Source: Phycisphaera sp. TMED24 (GTDB taxonomy: Bacteria > Planctomycetota > Phycisphaerae > Phycisphaerales > SM1A02). Taken from it: 64,000 nt of DNA. The position numbers and the translations under genes were made by a program. Positions within the stretch are counted from its first letter, which is position 1, and each line of letters starts with the position of its first letter. The stretch spans positions 68,784-132,783 of the forward strand of contig NHCD02000016.1 in the NCBI GenBank assembly GCA_002168105.2, written 5' to 3'. This document shows positions 2,995-20,454 of this stretch, in pieces. The notes below the pieces were generated by a model. That model was not told the DNA's origin. It searched no databases and saw only the letters and a list, made by a program, of their open reading frames with translations.

Positions 2995-3312
2995 ATGTAC
3001 GCCATCGTCGAAGACAGTGGAACCCAAATTCGCGTTGCCGAAGGCGACGAATTCGAAGTTGACCTCCGTGAAGGAGCGGAAGCGGGAAGTGAGATCGTTT
3101 TCGATCGCGTCCTCCTGATTTCCTCCGGCGAAGGCGAGCCAACCGTTGGGCTTCCTTACGTGGAAGGCGCCTCGGTGAAGGCTGAAGTTTTGGAGCAATT
3201 CAAGGCCGACAAAGTCACCAGCATCAAGTTCAAGCGTCGGAAGGGATACCGCCGAAATAAGGGTCATCGTCAGCCGTACTTGCAGGTCCGAGTGACCGGC
3301 ATCTCTGCCTGA
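2995..3312 (+). CDS. rplU: 50S ribosomal protein L21
   Basis: MYAIVEDSGTQIRVAEGDEFEVD...FKRRKGYRRNKGHRQPYLQVRVTGI is typical L21. Confidence 0.97.
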   Translation: MYAIVEDSGTQIRVAEGDEFEVDLREGAEAGSEIVFDRVLLISSGEGEPTVGLPYVEGASVKAEVLEQFKADKVTSIKFKRRKGYRRNKGHRQPYLQVRVTGISA

Positions 3313-9725: not shown

Positions 9726-10168
9726 TCTGGCTTCATGCTGTTTGGGTTTTTCTGGCGGGAATGTTGCAACCGGTGCAGTCGGGTATGAATGCGGAGTTGA
9801 GCCGTCATGCCGCAGCGCCATTGACAGCCGCCACTTGGAACATGCTTCTTGGCTTTGTGGTGGTGGCGTTGATTTGCGTCTTTTCGGGCGCCCCGGTACC
9901 CGGAGTCAATCTGCTCCGGGTCGCGCCGGTATGGAGCCTGTGGGGCGGACTGTGCGGCGCCGTCATTGTCTTCACCATGCTCTTCAACGCACCGGTGCTT
10001 GGGGCAGTGTTGTTGCTGTCGTGCTTCTTGTTGGGGCAGCTGACGAGTTCGTCGATCTTGGACCAGTTTGGCCTGATGGGATTCCCGCAGCGATCGGTCG
10101 TGGATCAACGCTTGGTGGGCTTGGTGTTGGTGGTCGCCGGGGTGGTACTGCTGCTGCGAGCGCGTTAG
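9722..10168 (+). CDS. YdcZ/DUF606-like DMT-family membrane protein
   Basis: GMLQPVQSGMNAELSRHAAAPLTAATWNMLLG plus four to five TM segments; ATGA overlap with pyrC. Confidence 0.75.
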   Translation: MIWLHAVWVFLAGMLQPVQSGMNAELSRHAAAPLTAATWNMLLGFVVVALICVFSGAPVPGVNLLRVAPVWSLWGGLCGAVIVFTMLFNAPVLGAVLLLSCFLLGQLTSSSILDQFGLMGFPQRSVVDQRLVGLVLVVAGVVLLLRAR

Positions 10169-10950
10169 TCCTCAAGGTCGACAATCAGGGGAGCGTGATC
10201 GGAGGGTTTTCCGATTTCGAGTTCCGCATGCGCCTTCCGCTCTTCGCGGTCCACCTGGACGTGCGTCACCCGACAGTTCAGGCTTGCAGAGAGCAGGGCG
10301 TGATCGATACGCAGCCCATCATTTTTCGGGAAGCCTAAGCTTCGATAGTCCCACCACGTGAACACACCACCTTCGGTTTCGATTGCTTCGTGGGGATCGA
10401 TCAAACCAAAGTCGCGAACGTGCTGGATGGCTTCGCGGACCGAGTCGTGGCACAGCACGCTGTCTCGCCATTTGTCGAAGTTCTTGGCGTCGGTATCACG
10501 AGGCGCGCAGTTCCAGTCCCCAAGAATCGCCAGATCGGATTGGGGGTCTTCGAGGCGGTCCAGGTGGCTTCGCAAGGCGGCGAGCCACTTCAACTTGTAT
10601 TCATGCTTGTCGCTGCCGACTTCCTTTCCGTTGGGGATATAAGCACTGGCGATGCGAATGCCCCCGGTCTCTCCGAGAATAAACCTTGCTTGCGGGTCTT
10701 CAAAGTTGTCGAGGCCTTCCGAGACCACTTCGATTGGAGTTTTGCTGACCAAGGCCACGCCGTTGTACGTCTTTTGACCAACCGCGGCCAGATGCCAGCC
10801 CGCTGCCTCAATGGCTTCTCTGGGAAGGTCTTCGACGAGCGATTTGGTTTCTTGAAGGCAGACCACATCGGGTTGCCACCGGTCCAGAAACCGAAAGAAA
10901 CGATCGTGGCGGGGCTTCAGGCTGTTGACGTTCCAAGAGACGATGCGCAT
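10165..10950 (-). CDS. xthA: Exodeoxyribonuclease III
   Basis: MRIVSWNVNSLKPRHDRFFRFLDRWQPDVVCLQETKSL, LGDWNCAPRDTD, RIDHALLSASL, PSDHAPLIVDL. Confidence 0.95.
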   Translation of the reverse strand: MRIVSWNVNSLKPRHDRFFRFLDRWQPDVVCLQETKSLVEDLPREAIEAAGWHLAAVGQKTYNGVALVSKTPIEVVSEGLDNFEDPQARFILGETGGIRIASAYIPNGKEVGSDKHEYKLKWLAALRSHLDRLEDPQSDLAILGDWNCAPRDTDAKNFDKWRDSVLCHDSVREAIQHVRDFGLIDPHEAIETEGGVFTWWDYRSLGFPKNDGLRIDHALLSASLNCRVTHVQVDREERKAHAELEIGKPSDHAPLIVDLED

Positions 10951-10971
10951 AGTTTGGACTCCAATACCATT

Positions 10972-11511
10972 TTAGGCATCTTGCTTCAGGTCGCCGGTCG
11001 CCACCAGCTGGTCAAGGAACATGTTGCCGGTGTGGTCGCGGAGAAGCATGACTTTGGCCAGGCCCAGTGCGTCGTCCAGAGCGCGGTGTCCGATGTTGCG
11101 ATGGATCTTGTAGCGATCCAGCAAGCTGGACAGCCCCACAAAGCTGACATTTTCTCTGCGCCATTTGATTTGGCGTACGGAGCAGCGCCAAGGAAGGTCA
11201 TTGGTCCACGTGGCGGTCCGGCGCAGCATTGCCCGATCGAATGAAGCGTTGTGGGCCACGACAAGATCTGCGTTCTTGAGGTGATCCATCATCTCCGGTG
11301 GCACCACCATCCCACGACGCTGCTCATCTGCGATGCCATGGATGGCGAACGCTTCGGGTGTCGAGGGCGGCCCTTCGTCGTGCAGAGCGCTGTGGCCCCA
11401 GACAATGCGCGTTTGGTGCGCACAGCGTTCCATCATGACCAAGGCGAACTCAAGAATTCGGTCCTCTGGGCCTGTGCCGCTGGTTTCGGTGTCAACAACC
11501 GCGATGCGCAT
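10972..11511 (-). CDS. DEDDh 3'-5' exonuclease (DnaQ/epsilon-like)
   Basis: IAVVDTETSGTGPEDRILEFALV, VVAHNASFDRAMLRR, HRALDDALGLAKVML. Confidence 0.88.
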   Translation of the reverse strand: MRIAVVDTETSGTGPEDRILEFALVMMERCAHQTRIVWGHSALHDEGPPSTPEAFAIHGIADEQRRGMVVPPEMMDHLKNADLVVAHNASFDRAMLRRTATWTNDLPWRCSVRQIKWRRENVSFVGLSSLLDRYKIHRNIGHRALDDALGLAKVMLLRDHTGNMFLDQLVATGDLKQDA

Positions 11512-11575
11512 GGGGGTGAACCTACCTTGGCGTTGACGCTTTTTCTGATCTTGCTATACTTCTCCTCTTACCTGA

Positions 11576-11649
<74 letters not shown>

Positions 11650-11658
11650 TTCGAACAA

Positions 11659-11692
11659 AAGCCCTCTTCCACGTCGGAGAGGGCTTGTTTCG
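11659..11692 (+). terminator. Hairpin terminator after tRNA-fMet
   Basis: AAGCCCTCT / AGAGGGCTT stem with a T-rich 3' flank (GTTTCGTTT); the T tract is weak. Confidence 0.6.
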
Positions 11693-11843
11693 TTTCTGGG
11701 GACAGGTCAGCCTTGGGCTTGATTTGCCACAACACATCTGGGCCGACACTCCGCATGAGTTCTTTCTGATGAAGCGTGAACCCTTCAGTGTGTTTGTCGA
11801 AGAGATGCTTCAAAACATTTTTCCAGAGCGAAAGACAATCTGT

Positions 11844-11859
11844 CGTACATCGGTGTACG
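11844..11859. promoter_or_regulatory. Putative BlaI/MecI operator upstream of blaI
   Basis: Perfect dyad CGTACA-tcgg-TGTACG containing the TACA...TGTA core known for BlaI/MecI operators, 33 bp before the blaI ATG; outer GACAAT...ATTGTC also present. Confidence 0.65.
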
Positions 11860-11891
11860 ATTGTCGCACACACTTTTATGGAGTCGAATGT

Positions 11892-12266
11892 ATGACCATT
11901 GAATCGCTGGCCAACGCTGAACTCGCGGTGATGGAACTGTTGTGGGAGGGGGATCGCCTGACCGCTCGGCAGATCCGGGACGAGTTGTATCCGGGAGGCG
12001 ACCGCTCCGCGAACGGCACGGTGCAACGTTTGCTCCAGCGTCTCGAGACCAAGGGATTCGTTGAACGGGATCGTGAACTTCCTGTCCATCTCTTTTCGGC
12101 TCTTGTTGGGCGCGAGGCCTATGCCGGCGCTCAGTTGAAATCGTTGGCGGAGCAGCTTACCGGTGGCTCCCTGGCCCCTGCGATCACCCACTTGATTGAT
12201 GCGAAGCAGTTGACCCGCGAAGAAATCAAGCGTCTTCGGAAGATTCTCGATGGGGAGGCATCGTGA
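11892..12266 (+). CDS. BlaI/MecI/CopY family transcriptional repressor
   Basis: LANAELAVMELLWEGDRLTARQIRDELYPGGDRSANGTVQRLLQRLETKGFVERDRE winged-helix of the BlaI family. Confidence 0.9.
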   Translation: MTIESLANAELAVMELLWEGDRLTARQIRDELYPGGDRSANGTVQRLLQRLETKGFVERDRELPVHLFSALVGREAYAGAQLKSLAEQLTGGSLAPAITHLIDAKQLTREEIKRLRKILDGEAS

Positions 12267-12580
12267 TGCACGCTCTTCTGCACTTTGTCGTGGGCAATCT
12301 TCTGGTTGCAGTCCCGCTCGGTTTTATTGCGTTCTTTGTTCAGCGAGGGCAGCGCTTCCCGGCTGTCGCGCACGTTCTGGCTACTTTGGTCGGGTGTGCT
12401 GCTTGGGTCCCCAGCGAAAAGCACTGGCAACAACGGCAAAGATTGTTCCGATACATCCAAGCCCAATTGCTCCGTATACGACTCGAAAGAATATCGCTCC
12501 CCGGGGTCCAGGCTCGAATGTTGCCAGAAAGCCGAACACGCAGAATGCGGCAATCGGTAGGCAGATTGCCACCAGAATAA
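12266..12580 (+). pseudogene. Truncated BlaR1/M56-type membrane sensor (N-terminal stub)
   Basis: tgATG overlap with the blaI stop. MHALLHFVVGNLLVAVPLGFIAFFVQRGQRFPAVAHVLATLV resembles the first TM of M56 partners, but no HExxH and no further TM follow; the rest of the ORF is unrelated. Confidence 0.55.
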
Positions 12581-12662
12581 ATTTCAGTAGATGCTTTATG
12601 ACTTGGTGGCTCCTTCGTCCTAACGGTCTGGAATCATACTGCCACCCCGCCGGCCTGAACAC
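12381..12662 (-). CDS. Small two-TM hypothetical membrane protein (may be degenerate)
   Basis: VIKHLLKFILVAICLPIAAFCVFGFLATFEPGP...VVYGAIGLGCIGTIFAVVASAF; two clear TM segments, GTG start only, no ATG. Confidence 0.35.
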   Translation of the reverse strand: MFRPAGWQYDSRPLGRRSHQVIKHLLKFILVAICLPIAAFCVFGFLATFEPGPRGAIFFRVVYGAIGLGCIGTIFAVVASAFRWGPKQHTRPK

Positions 12663-12911
12663 TTTGGTTTGTCGTCACTCACTTTTTGCCCTCGTTCCTA
12701 CCTATGAATCCCGCAACCATTGACTTCTGAGCATCATCGAAATGCGAGCCAATAGATCTTGCCGGTGGCCAGAAGTTTTTAATGTGTTTGGCGTGGCACA
12801 CTGCTCTGTCAATTGGAGTCAGCCCTCGAAGTATTGTCTGTACAGTGGTTTTGGTATTTGTTGGTCGTGCTGGCCCACATGCAACGGATAGCGTGAACGA
12901 GAGGCAATAAT

Positions 12912-13829
12912 TTGAGCTGGTATCGATCTTCATTCTCCTTCACTCTTCTCGCTCCAGTTGTGTTTCTCACCTGTGCTGGTTGTTTGGTCAATCCGCCATC
13001 TGCACCGAACTCATCGCCAACGGCATCAGCCAAAAAATCTCCGGAAGACCTCCTCGCTTCCGCCAGGATGCCAGGCCCATGGGATGTGCGATCCTTGAAG
13101 GAGCCCGCGGGAATCAGGAACGGTCCGCACTATGACAGCGCCACCATCTACTACCCCGTGGATCAGGCGGGCGTGCTGCCGGCAAGCCAGCAGTTGTCGA
13201 TTATGGCGTTCTGCCCGGGCTATCGCGGATCTGAGCGGTCGATGGCGCCATGGGGGGAATTTATGGCTTCGCATGGCGTGGTCACAGTCACGCTTGGAAC
13301 CAACAGTCTTTCCGATCAGCCTCCGGCGCGCGGGCGGGCACTCTTGGATGCCCTCGAGACGGTCCGCAACGAAAATACTCGGGATGGTTCGCCTCTGAAA
13401 GGGAAGCTTGCCGTCTCCCAAGCCGGCGTGGCGGGCTGGTCCATGGGCGGCGGGGGCGCGCAGCACGCGGCCGTGACCGATCCGAAGCTCAAAGCTGTCG
13501 TCGCCATGCTCCCCTGGCAGCCGGGCTACGCCTTTGAGCATGCCGTGCCGATCATGATTCTTGCAGGTGAGAAGGACCGCATTGCTTCGGCAGAAAGCAA
13601 TGCTCGGCCTCATTTTGAGCAAACCCCAAGCGGAACCATTAAGTCCTATTACGAAATCAAGAACGGCGGCCATTTTGTGGTCAACCGACCCGGCAGCCGG
13701 AATGGAGATATCGGGGCGTGGGTCTTGGCTTGGGTCAAAACCTACGTTGAAGGTAATGATGCGTACCAGGCCATTCTTGAACAGAAACCGGAAAGCGCGA
13801 GTTGGTACGTGAGCGATCGCAAGAAATAA
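12912..13829 (+). CDS. Alpha/beta-hydrolase lipoprotein of the PET-hydrolase/cutinase-like (polyesterase) type
   Basis: Lipobox FLTCAGC; YYPVD, CPGYRGSERSMAPWGEFMASHGVVTVTLGTNSLSDQPPARGRALLDAL, GWSMGGGGAQHAA, MLPWQ, LAGEKDRIA, GGHFVVN, WVKTYVEGNDAY align in order with bacterial PETase/cutinase motifs. TTG start. Confidence 0.8.
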   Translation: MSWYRSSFSFTLLAPVVFLTCAGCLVNPPSAPNSSPTASAKKSPEDLLASARMPGPWDVRSLKEPAGIRNGPHYDSATIYYPVDQAGVLPASQQLSIMAFCPGYRGSERSMAPWGEFMASHGVVTVTLGTNSLSDQPPARGRALLDALETVRNENTRDGSPLKGKLAVSQAGVAGWSMGGGGAQHAAVTDPKLKAVVAMLPWQPGYAFEHAVPIMILAGEKDRIASAESNARPHFEQTPSGTIKSYYEIKNGGHFVVNRPGSRNGDIGAWVLAWVKTYVEGNDAYQAILEQKPESASWYVSDRKK

Positions 13830-13859
13830 TCTTCGGTGCTGACTTTGTGCTTTTGACCA

Positions 13860-16109
13860 TTATTTGGTCTTGTTTTTAGGCACAGTCTGGGTGGTGAGTT
13901 GATGTGGTGCGGCTCGCATCTCATGACCATCTGAAAAGATCACGGTTTTCTCTACTCCGGCGAAGTTGTATGCCGCGTACGTCACGGAGTCCTTGTGGCG
14001 AAAGACCAAAGAAAATGGGTCGTCGCCTTGTACCGAAGGGACGATCTGTCCGTGAGCACTCATGACCTCACACCATAGGTTCATGAACGCCAAAGAATTT
14101 CCGCCCTCGACGTCAGTTGCTTCACGGGCTGCGTCACGAGCACCATCAGCATTCACGAATGCTGAGTACATAATCCTGAGGTCCTGCCAAGGACCAATCT
14201 GATCCAGTGGGTCGAGGCTGATGGCCTCAAGGTTCCGTTTGGCGTACGCCGGAGATCTTCCCAAGTACATGGATCCCGGAGTGAACGGGATCCAGTTGAT
14301 GCCATGAATGTGGCAGGGTTCCGGTGAGAACCAAGTTGTGTAGTCGTTTTTTCCACCCCAAACAATGCCAAGCGCCGGCTTGGGAAAGCCATCGGCGAAG
14401 TTCGTTTGGTCGACGTCAAACCAATACTCTTCAATGGCCATCAGTTCTGTGTTGTAGAGATACAGCCCCAGATCAAGCAGTTCAGTATTCCCAGTTGACG
14501 CGCCCCACAAGGCAATCCCATACCACACGTTCATTGCTTCCGAAGATGATTCCTGGTTGTTGCCGTCGCTGAATATGGCATGTCCAGAGGCCCAAGAGTG
14601 TCCGGCATAGGGGTCGAAATGCCGAAGGCGTGGGAACAGTGGGTCATTGGGAACAACAGACGCCACGTCACGGATCAACAATTCCACCAGTGGCCCCCAC
14701 TGGGTGGCCCAATCTGGATCAGACCTTGCAACCTCAGCCGCGGCACGAATGAAGTAGCCGTAATGGAAATGATGGTCGTTGATTTGGTCATCGCTCCCGT
14801 AACTGGGGGGAGTGCCAATCAGTGTGCCCCAAGACTTGTCGTAATAAAAATGTTCGGCATCCTGTACGCCAGCAAACGTTAGCCAGCGCTCAAGACGTTC
14901 GCGGATCGTCTTGATGGCCTCACTTTGTCTCGCTGTGTCGGACAAAGCTTCGGCGACTCCGGCCAAGGTGGTGAGTTTGCCAAGTTGCTTGCCTTCCCAG
15001 TAGGTGTCTTTGGGAGTGTCGAGCGTGAGGCGCTCTTGGGCAAATTGGGACCGAAGATGAGCCGGGACTTCTTTTGGGGCAGGGAGATGAGGCAGCATCC
15101 CTTGGATCTTGTACGTGGTGGTGAACCCTTGGCCCCTGAACAGTTGAAGGTCTCCTCGGACTGATTGATACGTCAGTTCTGTTTGTCCACGGTTCGATAC
15201 CAGATGCTTCCACTGGTGGGGGTACAAGGAATACAACGTTTCCCCAGGATCGCCTTCCATCGCCTTGGTTGTGAAGGTGAACGCTGTGTCAATCGTCCGG
15301 TCACTTCTTGTGTAATTCACGTCAGTTCCAACAACGTGACGCTGTGCGCAAGATCGGAAAAGTTCGAGCGTTCTTTTGTTTGTATCTGGCAGGAGGGCAA
15401 TGGAGTAAAAGTCTCGGCCAGAAATCAGTTGGACATGCCCTTCGTCATCCTGGGACCATGTGGATCCGGCCGGTCCAAAGAGGCCATACGCTCGACCTCG
15501 AACAGAAATCCCGAGGCACGCTCCGTTTGCACTTTGCAACCAGACAACCGGGCGCTCAGCAAAAGTAATTTTTGGTTGAAATCCTTCATGCTCGACATAA
15601 ACGAAAGGGCTTCCGTGACCAAAGCTTGTCTTGAACGTTCCGGTTCTGTTTTGAAAGACCGCTTGAACGAACCAATCTGAATGTTCGCCGAATCGGGCTT
15701 CTGAGAATGTACTGTTTGTCTCGATGCCAAGGATCAAATCACCATCCGCAGCCCCTCCCACAATTGCCCGTTCACTCGCCACGATTGATGGCCCGGGATA
15801 GGTCACACTCAAGCCCTGAGGTGTCGCTTGGAGTACCAGCGGATGCGCAAACATCGGAGCACTGTGCTCTGTCCAAGCCAACGATGACCACCAGTCGTTG
15901 GTGGGGATTGGACCTTCAACCTGATCGGTTTTGTAGATCTCGTCTGGAAGTGGTTTGCAATTGGCTGGCCTGCTGTCGGTAAAGCTGCCTGAGCCCGCAG
16001 TTCCCAAGGGATCGTCATCGACGATGTCTCCCAAGGACGTGGACAACATCGCCATAAGGGCGACTCTAAGTGCCAGTTGTATGCGTCTTGTTTGCTCTAT
16101 CCCGATCAT
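13860..16109 (-). CDS. Glycoside hydrolase family 81 endo-1,3-beta-glucanase
   Basis: GPIPTNDWWSSLAW near the N-terminus; YGSDDQINDHHFHYGYFIRAAAEVA; DPYAGHSWASGHAIFSDGNNQESSSEAMNVWYGIALWG: GH81 hallmark segments. N-terminal hydrophobic signal. Confidence 0.9.
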   Translation of the reverse strand: MIGIEQTRRIQLALRVALMAMLSTSLGDIVDDDPLGTAGSGSFTDSRPANCKPLPDEIYKTDQVEGPIPTNDWWSSLAWTEHSAPMFAHPLVLQATPQGLSVTYPGPSIVASERAIVGGAADGDLILGIETNSTFSEARFGEHSDWFVQAVFQNRTGTFKTSFGHGSPFVYVEHEGFQPKITFAERPVVWLQSANGACLGISVRGRAYGLFGPAGSTWSQDDEGHVQLISGRDFYSIALLPDTNKRTLELFRSCAQRHVVGTDVNYTRSDRTIDTAFTFTTKAMEGDPGETLYSLYPHQWKHLVSNRGQTELTYQSVRGDLQLFRGQGFTTTYKIQGMLPHLPAPKEVPAHLRSQFAQERLTLDTPKDTYWEGKQLGKLTTLAGVAEALSDTARQSEAIKTIRERLERWLTFAGVQDAEHFYYDKSWGTLIGTPPSYGSDDQINDHHFHYGYFIRAAAEVARSDPDWATQWGPLVELLIRDVASVVPNDPLFPRLRHFDPYAGHSWASGHAIFSDGNNQESSSEAMNVWYGIALWGASTGNTELLDLGLYLYNTELMAIEEYWFDVDQTNFADGFPKPALGIVWGGKNDYTTWFSPEPCHIHGINWIPFTPGSMYLGRSPAYAKRNLEAISLDPLDQIGPWQDLRIMYSAFVNADGARDAAREATDVEGGNSLAFMNLWCEVMSAHGQIVPSVQGDDPFSLVFRHKDSVTYAAYNFAGVEKTVIFSDGHEMRAAPHQLTTQTVPKNKTK

Positions 16110-16360
16110 TCTGTTGGGACTCCTCGCCTATTGCCGAAGCACTTTTTCAAGGGCGTTGCGTTTGGCCACCTCGTCATCATGTTTGCCCAAATGCCGAACC
16201 TGTTTGGTGCGGGGAATTGTCTCGGTTTTTTAGCCGCAAATTGACCGAAGACTCAAAGTGACAATCTGGCTCTCTGATATTCGCGATTATCCGGCATGGA
16301 ATCTTCGGTTATCGCCAAACGCGGCTGGTTCCATGGCGTAATATTCCGCACAAATTTACC

Positions 16361-17920
16361 ATGTCTGAATCTCAAACACGCCCATTCCAGTCTGTCGGTC
16401 GAGATCTCATCGGCGGAGTCGTCGTCTTCCTGGTCGCCATCCCTCTTTGCCTTGGTATTGCCCTGGCTTCAGGGGCTCCACTGATGTCCGGTTTGATCAC
16501 CGGCATCGTGGGCGGCATCGTCGTGGGCATCATCAGCGGTTCCCACGTCAGTGTGTCTGGTCCCGCGGCAGGTTTGGCCGCCATTGTGCTTGCGCAAATC
16601 GAAGGTCTTGGTGGCTTTCAACCTTTCCTGCTGGCGGTGGCTCTGGCGGGGGTCATGCAAGCTGCTTTTGGCGTGCTGCGGGGCGGGGCGTTGGCCAATT
16701 TTTTCCCCAACAGTGTCATCCGCGGCTTGTTGGCCGCCATCGGGGTGTTGCTCATCCTGAAACAAATGCCGCACCTCGTTGGCCATGACACCGACCCTGT
16801 GGGCGACATGGCCTTCGAGCAGCCAGATGGCGATACCACCTTTACCGCCATCGAAACGGCGATGGAATCTGTGTTGCCCGGCGCCGCCCTGGTCGGTTTT
16901 GTGTGCTTTGCCTTGTTGCTGATCTGGCCCAAGACGCCACTTGCCAAATCGCTGTTCCCCGCACCACTTGCGGCGGTGCTTCTGGGCGTGGCTATCAATG
17001 AGATTCTCGTTGCCAACGGATCCGCATTGGCCATCACCAGCACCCACTTGGTTGGCGTCCCGGTGGTGGGCGTTGACGGCGCAACGTGGTCTGATGTTTT
17101 GGTGATGCCAGAGTTTGCTCGCATTGCCGACCCCGCCCTCTGGCTGGCTGCAATCACCATTGCCATTGTGGCTTCACTTGAGACGTTGTTGAATCTTGAC
17201 GCGACCGATCGCTTGGACCCTCAGAAGCGTCATTCGCCCCCAAACCGCGAGCTGGTCGCTCAAGGTATCGGCAACACCATCTCCGGCATGATGGGCGGTC
17301 TTCCCATGACCTCGGTCATTGTGCGCAGCTCGGTGAATGCGCAGTCTGGGGCCACGACCAGACTTTCCGCGATCACCCATGGTGTGCTGCTGCTGGGCAG
17401 TGTGGCTCTCCTGCCCGAGCTTCTGAATCGCATTCCTCTTTCGTCGCTCGCCGCGATCTTGATTGTCACGGGCTTCAAGCTGGCCAGTCCTCAGGTCTTC
17501 CGCGGCTTGTGGAAGCAAGGTGTCTCCCAGTTCATTCCGTTTGTCATCACGATCTTGGCGATCGTCTACACCGATTTGCTGGTTGGGGTGATCATTGGTC
17601 TAGGAACGAGTTTCTTGTTCGTCTTGCGCCGGAATGTTCAAGGCGGCGTTCGGGTTCACATTGAAGAAAATGAAGGGGCATCCCTGCACCGCATCAAGCT
17701 GGGCTCAGAAGTGAGTTTCCTGAACAAGGCTCGCCTGCTTAACACGCTCGACTCTTTTGGTGACGGCGACCAGATTTTGATCGACGCCACCCTGTGTGAT
17801 GACATTGACCCGGATGTTTTGGGCACCATCAACGACTACATCACCGAGCGTGCGCCCAAGCGTGGTGTCCAGGCCACGATGGTTGGATTCCAGTCGTCCT
17901 ATCCTGTCCCCGCCGGATAA
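16361..17920 (+). CDS. SulP family anion transporter with C-terminal STAS-like region
   Basis: DLIGGVVVFLVAIPLCLGIALASGAPLMSGLITGIVGGIVVGIISGSHVSVSGPAAGLAAIV; multiple TMs; soluble tail. Confidence 0.92.
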   Translation: MSESQTRPFQSVGRDLIGGVVVFLVAIPLCLGIALASGAPLMSGLITGIVGGIVVGIISGSHVSVSGPAAGLAAIVLAQIEGLGGFQPFLLAVALAGVMQAAFGVLRGGALANFFPNSVIRGLLAAIGVLLILKQMPHLVGHDTDPVGDMAFEQPDGDTTFTAIETAMESVLPGAALVGFVCFALLLIWPKTPLAKSLFPAPLAAVLLGVAINEILVANGSALAITSTHLVGVPVVGVDGATWSDVLVMPEFARIADPALWLAAITIAIVASLETLLNLDATDRLDPQKRHSPPNRELVAQGIGNTISGMMGGLPMTSVIVRSSVNAQSGATTRLSAITHGVLLLGSVALLPELLNRIPLSSLAAILIVTGFKLASPQVFRGLWKQGVSQFIPFVITILAIVYTDLLVGVIIGLGTSFLFVLRRNVQGGVRVHIEENEGASLHRIKLGSEVSFLNKARLLNTLDSFGDGDQILIDATLCDDIDPDVLGTINDYITERAPKRGVQATMVGFQSSYPVPAG

Positions 17921-17944
17921 AGGCAAGGGGCCTGCCGTGATCGC

Positions 17945-18125
17945 ACAGCACGCTCACGCGGACCATCAATGAGGTGGCAATCGCGACCAGGCCAAAGTGG
18001 TCCGGCGTCAGAAGCCTGCCCAAGACCGCCACCGATCCAAATCCGATGACCATGTTGGCCGCCTGGGTCACCAGCACCAAAGCGCCGCCACGGACCGATT
18101 GTCGGGGCAGGTCTGAACGAACTGG
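17945..18125 (-). pseudogene. N-terminal fragment of a MOP/Wzx-type polysaccharide flippase
   Basis: Reverse strand reads [48 protein letters not shown], a typical oligosaccharide-flippase start, then loses similarity within about 60 codons. Confidence 0.65.
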
Positions 18126-18267
18126 TGGGCCATTGGACGGGATGCACCAAGTATGTCACAGGGTTGAGCCTGAGGATTGCTGGTGTGGATGGTTTTTCAT
18201 GAATGATGTGCGATCTGATTGTTGGTTGAACGACCGATATCATGCCCAACTTGGAGATCTCAACCTC

Positions 18268-20454
18268 ATGACCGAGCCCACCACCCGCTGCCCTTTTTTG
18301 AACCCCGCTTCTCACGCCACCGTCGGCTCCAGACCGAGCCAAAGTTGGTGGCCAGAGCAACTTCGCCTGGACATCCTGCATCAGCACCAGCCGGCCACGA
18401 GTCCTCTGCCTGATGATTTTGATTACGCCGCCGCCTTCGCCGCAGTGGATCTTGATGCGCTCAAGGCAGAGATCGTGGAGTTGATGACCACCTCTCAAGA
18501 TTGGTGGCCAGCGGACTGGGGGCACTACGGCCCCTTCTTTATCCGCATGGCCTGGCACAGTGCAGGCACGTATCGCATCCACGATGGTCGGGGTGGTTCA
18601 GCCGCAGGCATGCTCCGCTTTGCTCCACTGAACAGCTGGCCGGACAACACCAACTTGGACAAGGCCCGGCGGTTGTTGTGGCCGATCAAGAAAAAATATG
18701 GCCGGTCTCTCTCTTGGGCCGATTTGATGATCTTCACCGGAAATTGCGCGCTCGAGTCCATGGGATTCAAGACCTTCGGGTTTGCCGGAGGGCGCGAGGA
18801 TCTCTTCGCTCCCGAAGAAGATGTCGATTGGGGACCTGAGACCGAGTGGCTGGGCGACGAGCGTTACAGCGGTGATCGAGAGCTTGCCAATCCATTGGGT
18901 GCAGTCCAGATGGGCTTGATCTACGTCAACCCAGAGGGTCCCAATGGCAACCCCGACCCATTGGCTTCAGCCCGCGATATCCGTGAGACGTTTGGCCGCA
19001 TGGCCATGAACGACGAAGAGACCGTGGCCCTGGTGGCGGGGGGGCACACCTTTGGCAAAGCCCACGGCGCGGCCGATCCTGATCAACACATTGGTCGTGA
19101 GCCAGAAGGTGCCAGCATGGAGCAGATGGGACTTGGATGGAGCAATTCATTCGGTTCTGGCCGTGGTGGCGACACCATCACCAGTGGTCTTGAAGGGGCC
19201 TGGACGCCGAACCCCACCCAATGGGACAACGGCTACTTTGACACCCTCTTTGGACACGAATGGAAGCTCTCCAAGAGTCCCGCGGGCGCGATCCAGTGGG
19301 AGCCCGTTGATGAGGAGGGTGCGGTGGTCCGCGACGCCCACAGTCCTGAAGCATCCAATCGTCCGATGATGTTGACCACCGACATCGCGTTGCGGGAGGA
19401 CCCCATTTACGCGTCAATCTCAAAGCGCTTCCATGAGAATCCCGACGCCTTTGCTGAGGCCTTTGCCAAGGCGTGGTTCAAATTGACCCACCGCGATATG
19501 GGCCCGGAGGCTCGTTATGTCGGATCCCACGTACCAAACGAAACGCAAATCTGGCAGGATGTCGTCCCACCCTGCGACCATCCTTTGGTTGATGATGCGT
19601 CAATTGCTGAACTCAAGCGCAGTGTCTTGGCCAGCGGGCTGTCGGTCGGCCGTTTGGTGCTGACCGCTTGGGCATCTGCCTCTTCGTATCGCGTGACGGA
19701 CCACCGCGGAGGTGCCAATGGCGCCCGGGTTCGTTTGGAGCCGCAACGGTCATGGGCCGTGAACGAGCCCGAATCTTTGGCGGACGCACTGGACACTCTG
19801 GAAGGCATCAGAACGGCATTCAACGCCGGTCGCAGCGATGGCATTCAGATTTCGCTGGCCGACCTCATCGTGTTGGCAGGCAGTGCCGCGGTCGAAGCCT
19901 CTGCGTCAGCCGCCGGACATTCAATCGTGGTGCCGTTCCGTCCTGGTCGAACCGATGCCACGGCCGAGCAAACGGATGCTGATTCCTTCGCTCCTTTGGA
20001 ATCCCATGCCGATGGGTTCCGCAATTACGTGGCCCAGGAGGCGGCCGACCGAACGGAGGCTCGATTGGTGGACAAGGCCCACCTGCTCGGCTTGACCGCA
20101 CCGCAGATGACTGCCCTGGTTGGCGGAATGCGTGTGTTGGGTGCGACGGCCAACGAGTCGTCGCTGGGTGTCTTGACTGACCACGTTGGCACGTTGACCA
20201 ACGATTTCTTTGTCAATGTTCTTGATCCAGAGTTGCAATGGTCGGTGTCGCCTCGTTGCGAACACTTCTACGAAGCCCGGGACCGATCCAACACGATGCG
20301 CTGGACCGGTTCGGCGGTGGACCTGGTGTTTGGATCCAATTCTCAACTCCGCGCCATCAGCGAGGTGTACGCTTCTGACGATGGCGTTGATCTGTTCGTC
20401 CGTGATTTTGTGGCCGCTTGGGACCACGTGATGAATCTCGGTCGGTTTGACTGA
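18268..20454 (+). CDS. katG: Bifunctional catalase-peroxidase
   Basis: [56 protein letters not shown], second non-catalytic domain. Start at ATG 18268 ([10 protein letters not shown]). Confidence 0.97.

Follow-up and report, generated by a model that had tools for sequence, protein, structure and literature searches.

The 64,000-nucleotide stretch of Phycisphaera sp. TMED24 analysed here (contig NHCD02000016.1, positions 68,784 to 132,783; hereafter the window) carries a gene for a PET30-like polyesterase, an uncharacterised further member of an already known family, the PETases, genuine but ordinary. The encoded protein is most likely a secreted alpha/beta hydrolase of PF12740, presumably anchored at the outer surface or in the periplasm, whose natural targets would be aliphatic polyester-like or lipid-like esters and which would cleave poly(ethylene terephthalate) (PET) slowly or not at all. 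A first-pass annotation had read the gene as encoding a PETase-like lipoprotein. We have lowered ‘PETase’ to ‘PET30-like polyesterase’ because the closest kin is PET30, the disulfides and the C-terminal M5 signature are missing, and the lipobox is atypical.

The match to the family is far beyond chance, given the E-values of both the profile and the closest structure. PF12740 (PETase) was matched in a Pfam scan with 174.6 bits (E = 3.4e-51; curated cut-off 28 bits) over profile positions 21-253 of 263, as it was by all 18 proteins of our alignment, and the closest PDB sequence was 7PZJ, PET30 of Kaistella jeonii (E = 2.1e-66). PbauzCut (8AIT), 8AIS, 7CWQ and IsPETase variants followed near 1e-39, and a profile of the Phycisphaerales clade searched against the PDB again returned PET30 first. 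The NCBIfam equivalog for the bis(2-hydroxyethyl) terephthalate (BHET) hydrolase BdeA (NF051441) scored 137.5 bits, far under its cut-off of 520. All of the motifs listed in the first-pass annotation (YYPVD, PGY, TNSLSDQP, GWSMGGGG, PWQ, GEKDRIA, GGHF and WVKTYVEGND) occur in the reading frame in the order given, and the IsPETase motifs that it quoted, together with GHSMG for the cutinase type (LCC), agree with the PDB sequences. Its assignment of the host to the planctomycetes was also right, the organism belonging to the Phycisphaerales within the Planctomycetota.

The gene is real and under purifying selection, since nonsynonymous divergence (dN) lies far below synonymous divergence (dS): 0.086 against 0.55 for the nearest orthologue, which is 85% identical (dN/dS ~0.16), and 0.18-0.19 against ~1.3 for the next two. 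The start codon falls at the same position in three orthologues of the genus (GTG, ATG and GTG), each preceded by a GGAGG- or GAGAGG-type site, so that start site and Shine-Dalgarno sequence are kept in all four gene-carrying species. A genome search found a single copy.

Among characterised enzymes, PET30 stands nearest. Identity over the core was 46.8% to PET30, 35.3% to IsPETase and 33.2% to LCC, and a tree with characterised enzymes joined the Phycisphaerales proteins to PET30 (support 92/98), apart from a group comprising IsPETase, LCC, 8EU1 and 8AIT. On this tree the Phycisphaerales subclade appears as sister to Bacteroidota PET30, the one Bacteroidota sequence in both the tree and the comparison of insertions. 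The earlier likening to IsPETase therefore holds at the level of family but not of nearest characterised kin, and direct orthology with IsPETase was rejected on identity and tree alike. Common to the window protein and PET30 are the DG(I/V)RNGP insertion, GTNSL, GWSMGGGGAQ and an ENxRxxSPLxGxL stretch. PET30 differs in that a Por-secretion domain follows at its C-terminus, C262 and C285 form a disulfide, and Tyr occupies the position of the clamp Trp, whereas the window protein stops at residue 305 directly after the catalytic domain, has a Tyr-Met-Trp (Y-M-W) clamp, lacks the disulfide and carries a likely lipoprotein signal.

An AlphaFold2 model, built on our 18-protein alignment of window and locus sequences, had a mean predicted local distance difference test (pLDDT) score of 86.4, with nearly all ten-residue blocks between residues 41 and 300 averaging at least 83. 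Foldseek ranked 7PZJ first by E-value (2.8e-31), and IsPETase chains overlaid the model with a TM-score (TMt) of 0.89-0.90 and a root-mean-square deviation of 1.5-1.6 Å over ~260 columns. Catalytic and clamp residues were assigned from an alignment with the IsPETase sequence, itself verified against 6QGC; the assignment gives a predicted triad of S177-D222-H254 in a GxSxG context and a predicted clamp of Y104-M178-W202. Across the alignment, neither the triad nor the Met161 position varies, and conservation extends to the Y/F and Trp positions. The family, fold and active site proposed at first pass are thus borne out by profile score, PET30 match, model overlay and aligned triad, with the equivalent of Trp185 in place.

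From alignment and model, Ser177, activated by His254 and Asp222, would attack ester carbonyls, with the backbone amides of Tyr104 and Met178 forming the oxyanion hole. The predicted cleft is open and lacks a lid; its lining of Tyr104, Trp202, Trp176 and Phe255 would accommodate an extended hydrophobic ester chain. We infer that the enzyme hydrolyses esters extracytoplasmically through the common Ser-His-Asp mechanism, with a polyester as the presumed real substrate; its natural role would most likely be to cleave ester linkages in material resembling aliphatic polyesters or lipids beside a small marine planctomycete cell. Expected substrates are polycaprolactone (PCL), BHET and p-nitrophenyl esters.

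The protein does not fall neatly into any of the recognised PETase types. With IsPETase of Piscinibacter/Ideonella sakaiensis (type IIb) it shares the triad, the Y-M-W clamp, the equivalent of W159 and the length of the loop after the catalytic His, which is three residues longer than in LCC. It differs from IsPETase in having F255 in place of S238 and N230 in place of S214. In the scheme of Joo et al., type II enzymes combine an extended post-His loop, which is present here, with C203-C239 and C273-C289 disulfides, both of which are missing: C203 and C239 correspond to G219 and V256, C273 corresponds to E290, and no Cys occurs downstream. With LCC and the type I cutinases the protein has in common the fold, the triad, the Y-M-W clamp, a Phe after the catalytic His and the lack of an active-site disulfide; however, type I enzymes are marked by GHSMG and one C-terminal disulfide, whereas here Trp (W176) rather than His precedes the nucleophile and the C-terminal disulfide is absent. 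The G-H-S-Q-G pentapeptide that marks type III PETases such as HaloPETase1, PmC and R75estA (PMC13396203) is replaced by GWSMG. Because the His-loop is type II-like but both type II disulfides are missing, the protein reads, on its sequence, as a mosaic of type I and type II features and not as type III.

Several observations weigh against a polyesterase reading that extends to PET. The disulfides that the first-pass annotation had listed for checking on an IsPETase overlay are absent, and since C101 is the sole Cys of the catalytic domain, a disulfide within that domain is impossible. The C-terminal signature DxDxR(Y)xxFxC (M5), taken from its description in the main text of PMC12224614, is likewise lacking, the position being occupied by EGNDAYQAILEQ. 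According to that text, Alam et al. detected activity on PET only in enzymes bearing the M5 motif, those without it being inactive. Nor did the locus reveal a polymer-degradation operon or any clue to the substrate. The same main text names Planctomycetota and Phycisphaerales among the carriers of marine M1-M4 ‘pseudo-PETases’, and the window protein carries the M4 features as described there; compared by description, the likeness extends to taxon, GGGG, PW, D, H and [PG]G[YF], and to the lack of M5.

With M5 missing, PET activity is doubtful, and PET would most likely be cleaved at a low rate, if at all. Weak activity is nevertheless conceivable because PET30 and other enzymes are active without M5: PET30 likewise lacks the signature by sequence, yet its PET activity has been measured, and further active enzymes without M5 are noted in a 2026 review (PMC12976661). 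PET27-PET30 hydrolyse PCL, BHET and Impranil, and PET slowly or not at all (PMC8767016). A MHETase-like tannase was not found in the genome by a search that matched no control genome either and is therefore uninformative.

The strongest competitor to a PET30-like polyesterase, which we place somewhat short of an even chance, is a small-molecule or lipid esterase or lipase that has retained the polyesterase fold and whose physiological substrate is not a polymer. It would account for the missing operon, and the residue after the catalytic His differs across the clade (F/L/S/N/W/T), as expected of a cleft tuned to differing substrates. Against it stand the conserved aromatic clamp and open polyesterase cleft, as well as the apparent export of the protein from the cytoplasm.

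It is tempting to speculate in the other direction, that the Phycisphaerales clade forms a distinct disulfide-free polyesterase lineage, cell-anchored in this genus and with a full Y-M-W clamp, that hydrolyses PET measurably. We regard this as unlikely. Were it true, the M5 signature would not be required for activity, and the clade would provide the first proven PET-active enzyme of the Planctomycetota, as far as the literature searched shows. The combination of an intact Y-M-W clamp with neither disulfide nor M5 could in any case serve to test M5 as a predictor of PET activity outside the Pseudomonadales. That the enzyme truly depolymerises PET at a level approaching that of IsPETase is very improbable: GWSMGGGG, the clamp shared with IsPETase and LCC, and a His-loop matching the extended type II loop in length speak in favour, but both type II disulfides and M5 are missing, PET30 as the nearest characterised enzyme is ~253-fold less active on PET than IsPETase (PMC8767016), and close homologues were found only in marine metagenome-assembled genomes. 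Finally, membership of another alpha/beta hydrolase family is refuted at sequence level and can be dismissed, and with it closer kinship to dienelactone hydrolases, which the first-pass annotation had named as a finding that would overturn it: the weak matches to DLH (18.2 bits, cut-off 21), Abhydrolase_1 and Abhydrolase_5 all fall under their curated cut-offs, whereas PETase stands 146 bits over its own, and in genome searches other PF12740-like hydrolases of the order reached no more than ~77 bits against the clade profile, whose members score at least 414.

Within the sampled phylum, clade members occur in four genera of one family only. A draw of 395 genomes across the phylum yielded no further full-length member, but its matches included no genome from the other three genera. 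Of five genomes from the window's genus, four carry the gene; the one without it is only 78% complete. Named homologue records are metagenome-assembled genomes, for example Phycisphaeraceae MED-G178 and Phycisphaerae NAT18 and SP137, and the record names suggest a marine origin. Purifying selection in four species of a marine genus, with the gene at one locus wherever flanks were readable, points to a substrate of natural origin and not to plastic. Within the PETase family the clade represents an uncharacterised but well-defined branch, from a phylum described as overlooked for polyester hydrolases (PMC12976661).

Secretion is supported by an N-terminal Sec-type export signal recognised by inspection, and clade members with an intact N-terminus mostly show a signal-like start by the same means. 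The lipobox LTCAGC proposed at first pass fares less evenly. In the window's genus the +1 Cys followed by LVNPP is conserved in four of four species, with a Ser/Pro/Thr-rich linker next, a lipoprotein-like layout; against lipidation, the Cys at -3 is disallowed by PROSITE PS51257 in the window protein and two orthologues, and only the fourth, with Gly, passes. This Cys is missing from the proteins of the other three genera, which resemble ordinary signal-peptidase I substrates except for one, L022, whose signal is ambiguous. Lipidation is therefore probable, and would be specific to the window's genus.

Table 1. Features of the polyesterase gene and its product (window coordinates)
Feature	Position	Strand	Basis and remarks
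PET30-like polyesterase gene	12912..13829	+	305 aa, TTG start; Pfam/PDB matches, purifying selection, single copy
Shine-Dalgarno-like GAGAGG	12899..12904	+	7 bases 5' of TTG; sequence and orthologue sites
Putative signal peptide, residues 1-23	12912..12980	+	Inspection: one Arg, then hydrophobic stretch; low pLDDT in model
Cys24, presumed lipidated	12981..12983	+	Conserved in genus; atypical Cys at -3
EPAGIRNGPHY insertion	13101..13133	+	Alignments; PET30 and Phycisphaerales clade (DG[IVL]RNGP) have the insertion, IsPETase and LCC do not
PGY; Y104 (= IsPETase Y87; clamp, oxyanion hole)	13215..13223	+	Alignment
GWSMG; S177 nucleophile (= S160), M178 (= M161), W176 (= W159)	13434..13448	+	Alignment
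W202 (= IsPETase W185; aromatic clamp)	13515..13517	+	Alignment; Tyr in PET30
D222, catalytic Asp (= D206)	13575..13577	+	Alignment
H254, catalytic His (= H237)	13671..13673	+	Alignment

Where flanks could be read, the locus holds a fixed position between housekeeping genes within the genus, in the order dihydroorotase-like gene, exonuclease III, DnaQ-like exonuclease, polyesterase, SulP transporter and KatG (neighbours named from sequence, and by Pfam where scanned). Across window positions 10165-20454 the neighbours are 78-97% identical to their counterparts in the related loci L018 and L019, compared with ~73% for the polyesterase, which therefore evolves faster than its syntenic neighbours. 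A horizontal or mobile context was rejected, as no phage record matched and the gene is syntenic in the genus; the plasmid collection gave only distant matches (29-36%) on three records.

Between the polyesterase and SulP genes the window contains a gene for a GH81 endo-beta-1,3-glucanase (13860-16109, minus strand; Glyco_hydro81C, 207.9 bits). It is absent from the corresponding place in L017, L018 and L019, the relatives with flanks read, and is consequently not part of a conserved unit, representing either a species-level gain or a loss in the other species. On the other side, the gap between the DnaQ-like and polyesterase genes is ~1.4 kb in the window and 0.5-0.7 kb in L018 and L019. A BlaI/MecI-type penicillinase repressor gene lies at 11685-12266 (plus strand), and the next stretch (~12267-12911), the expected site of a BlaR-like partner, contains only short overlapping frames. 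In L017, the contig of the 85% identical orthologue, KatG is reduced to its last 42 residues (3062-3187) downstream of SulP, suggesting that katG has suffered a deletion or that two pieces were joined in the assembly.
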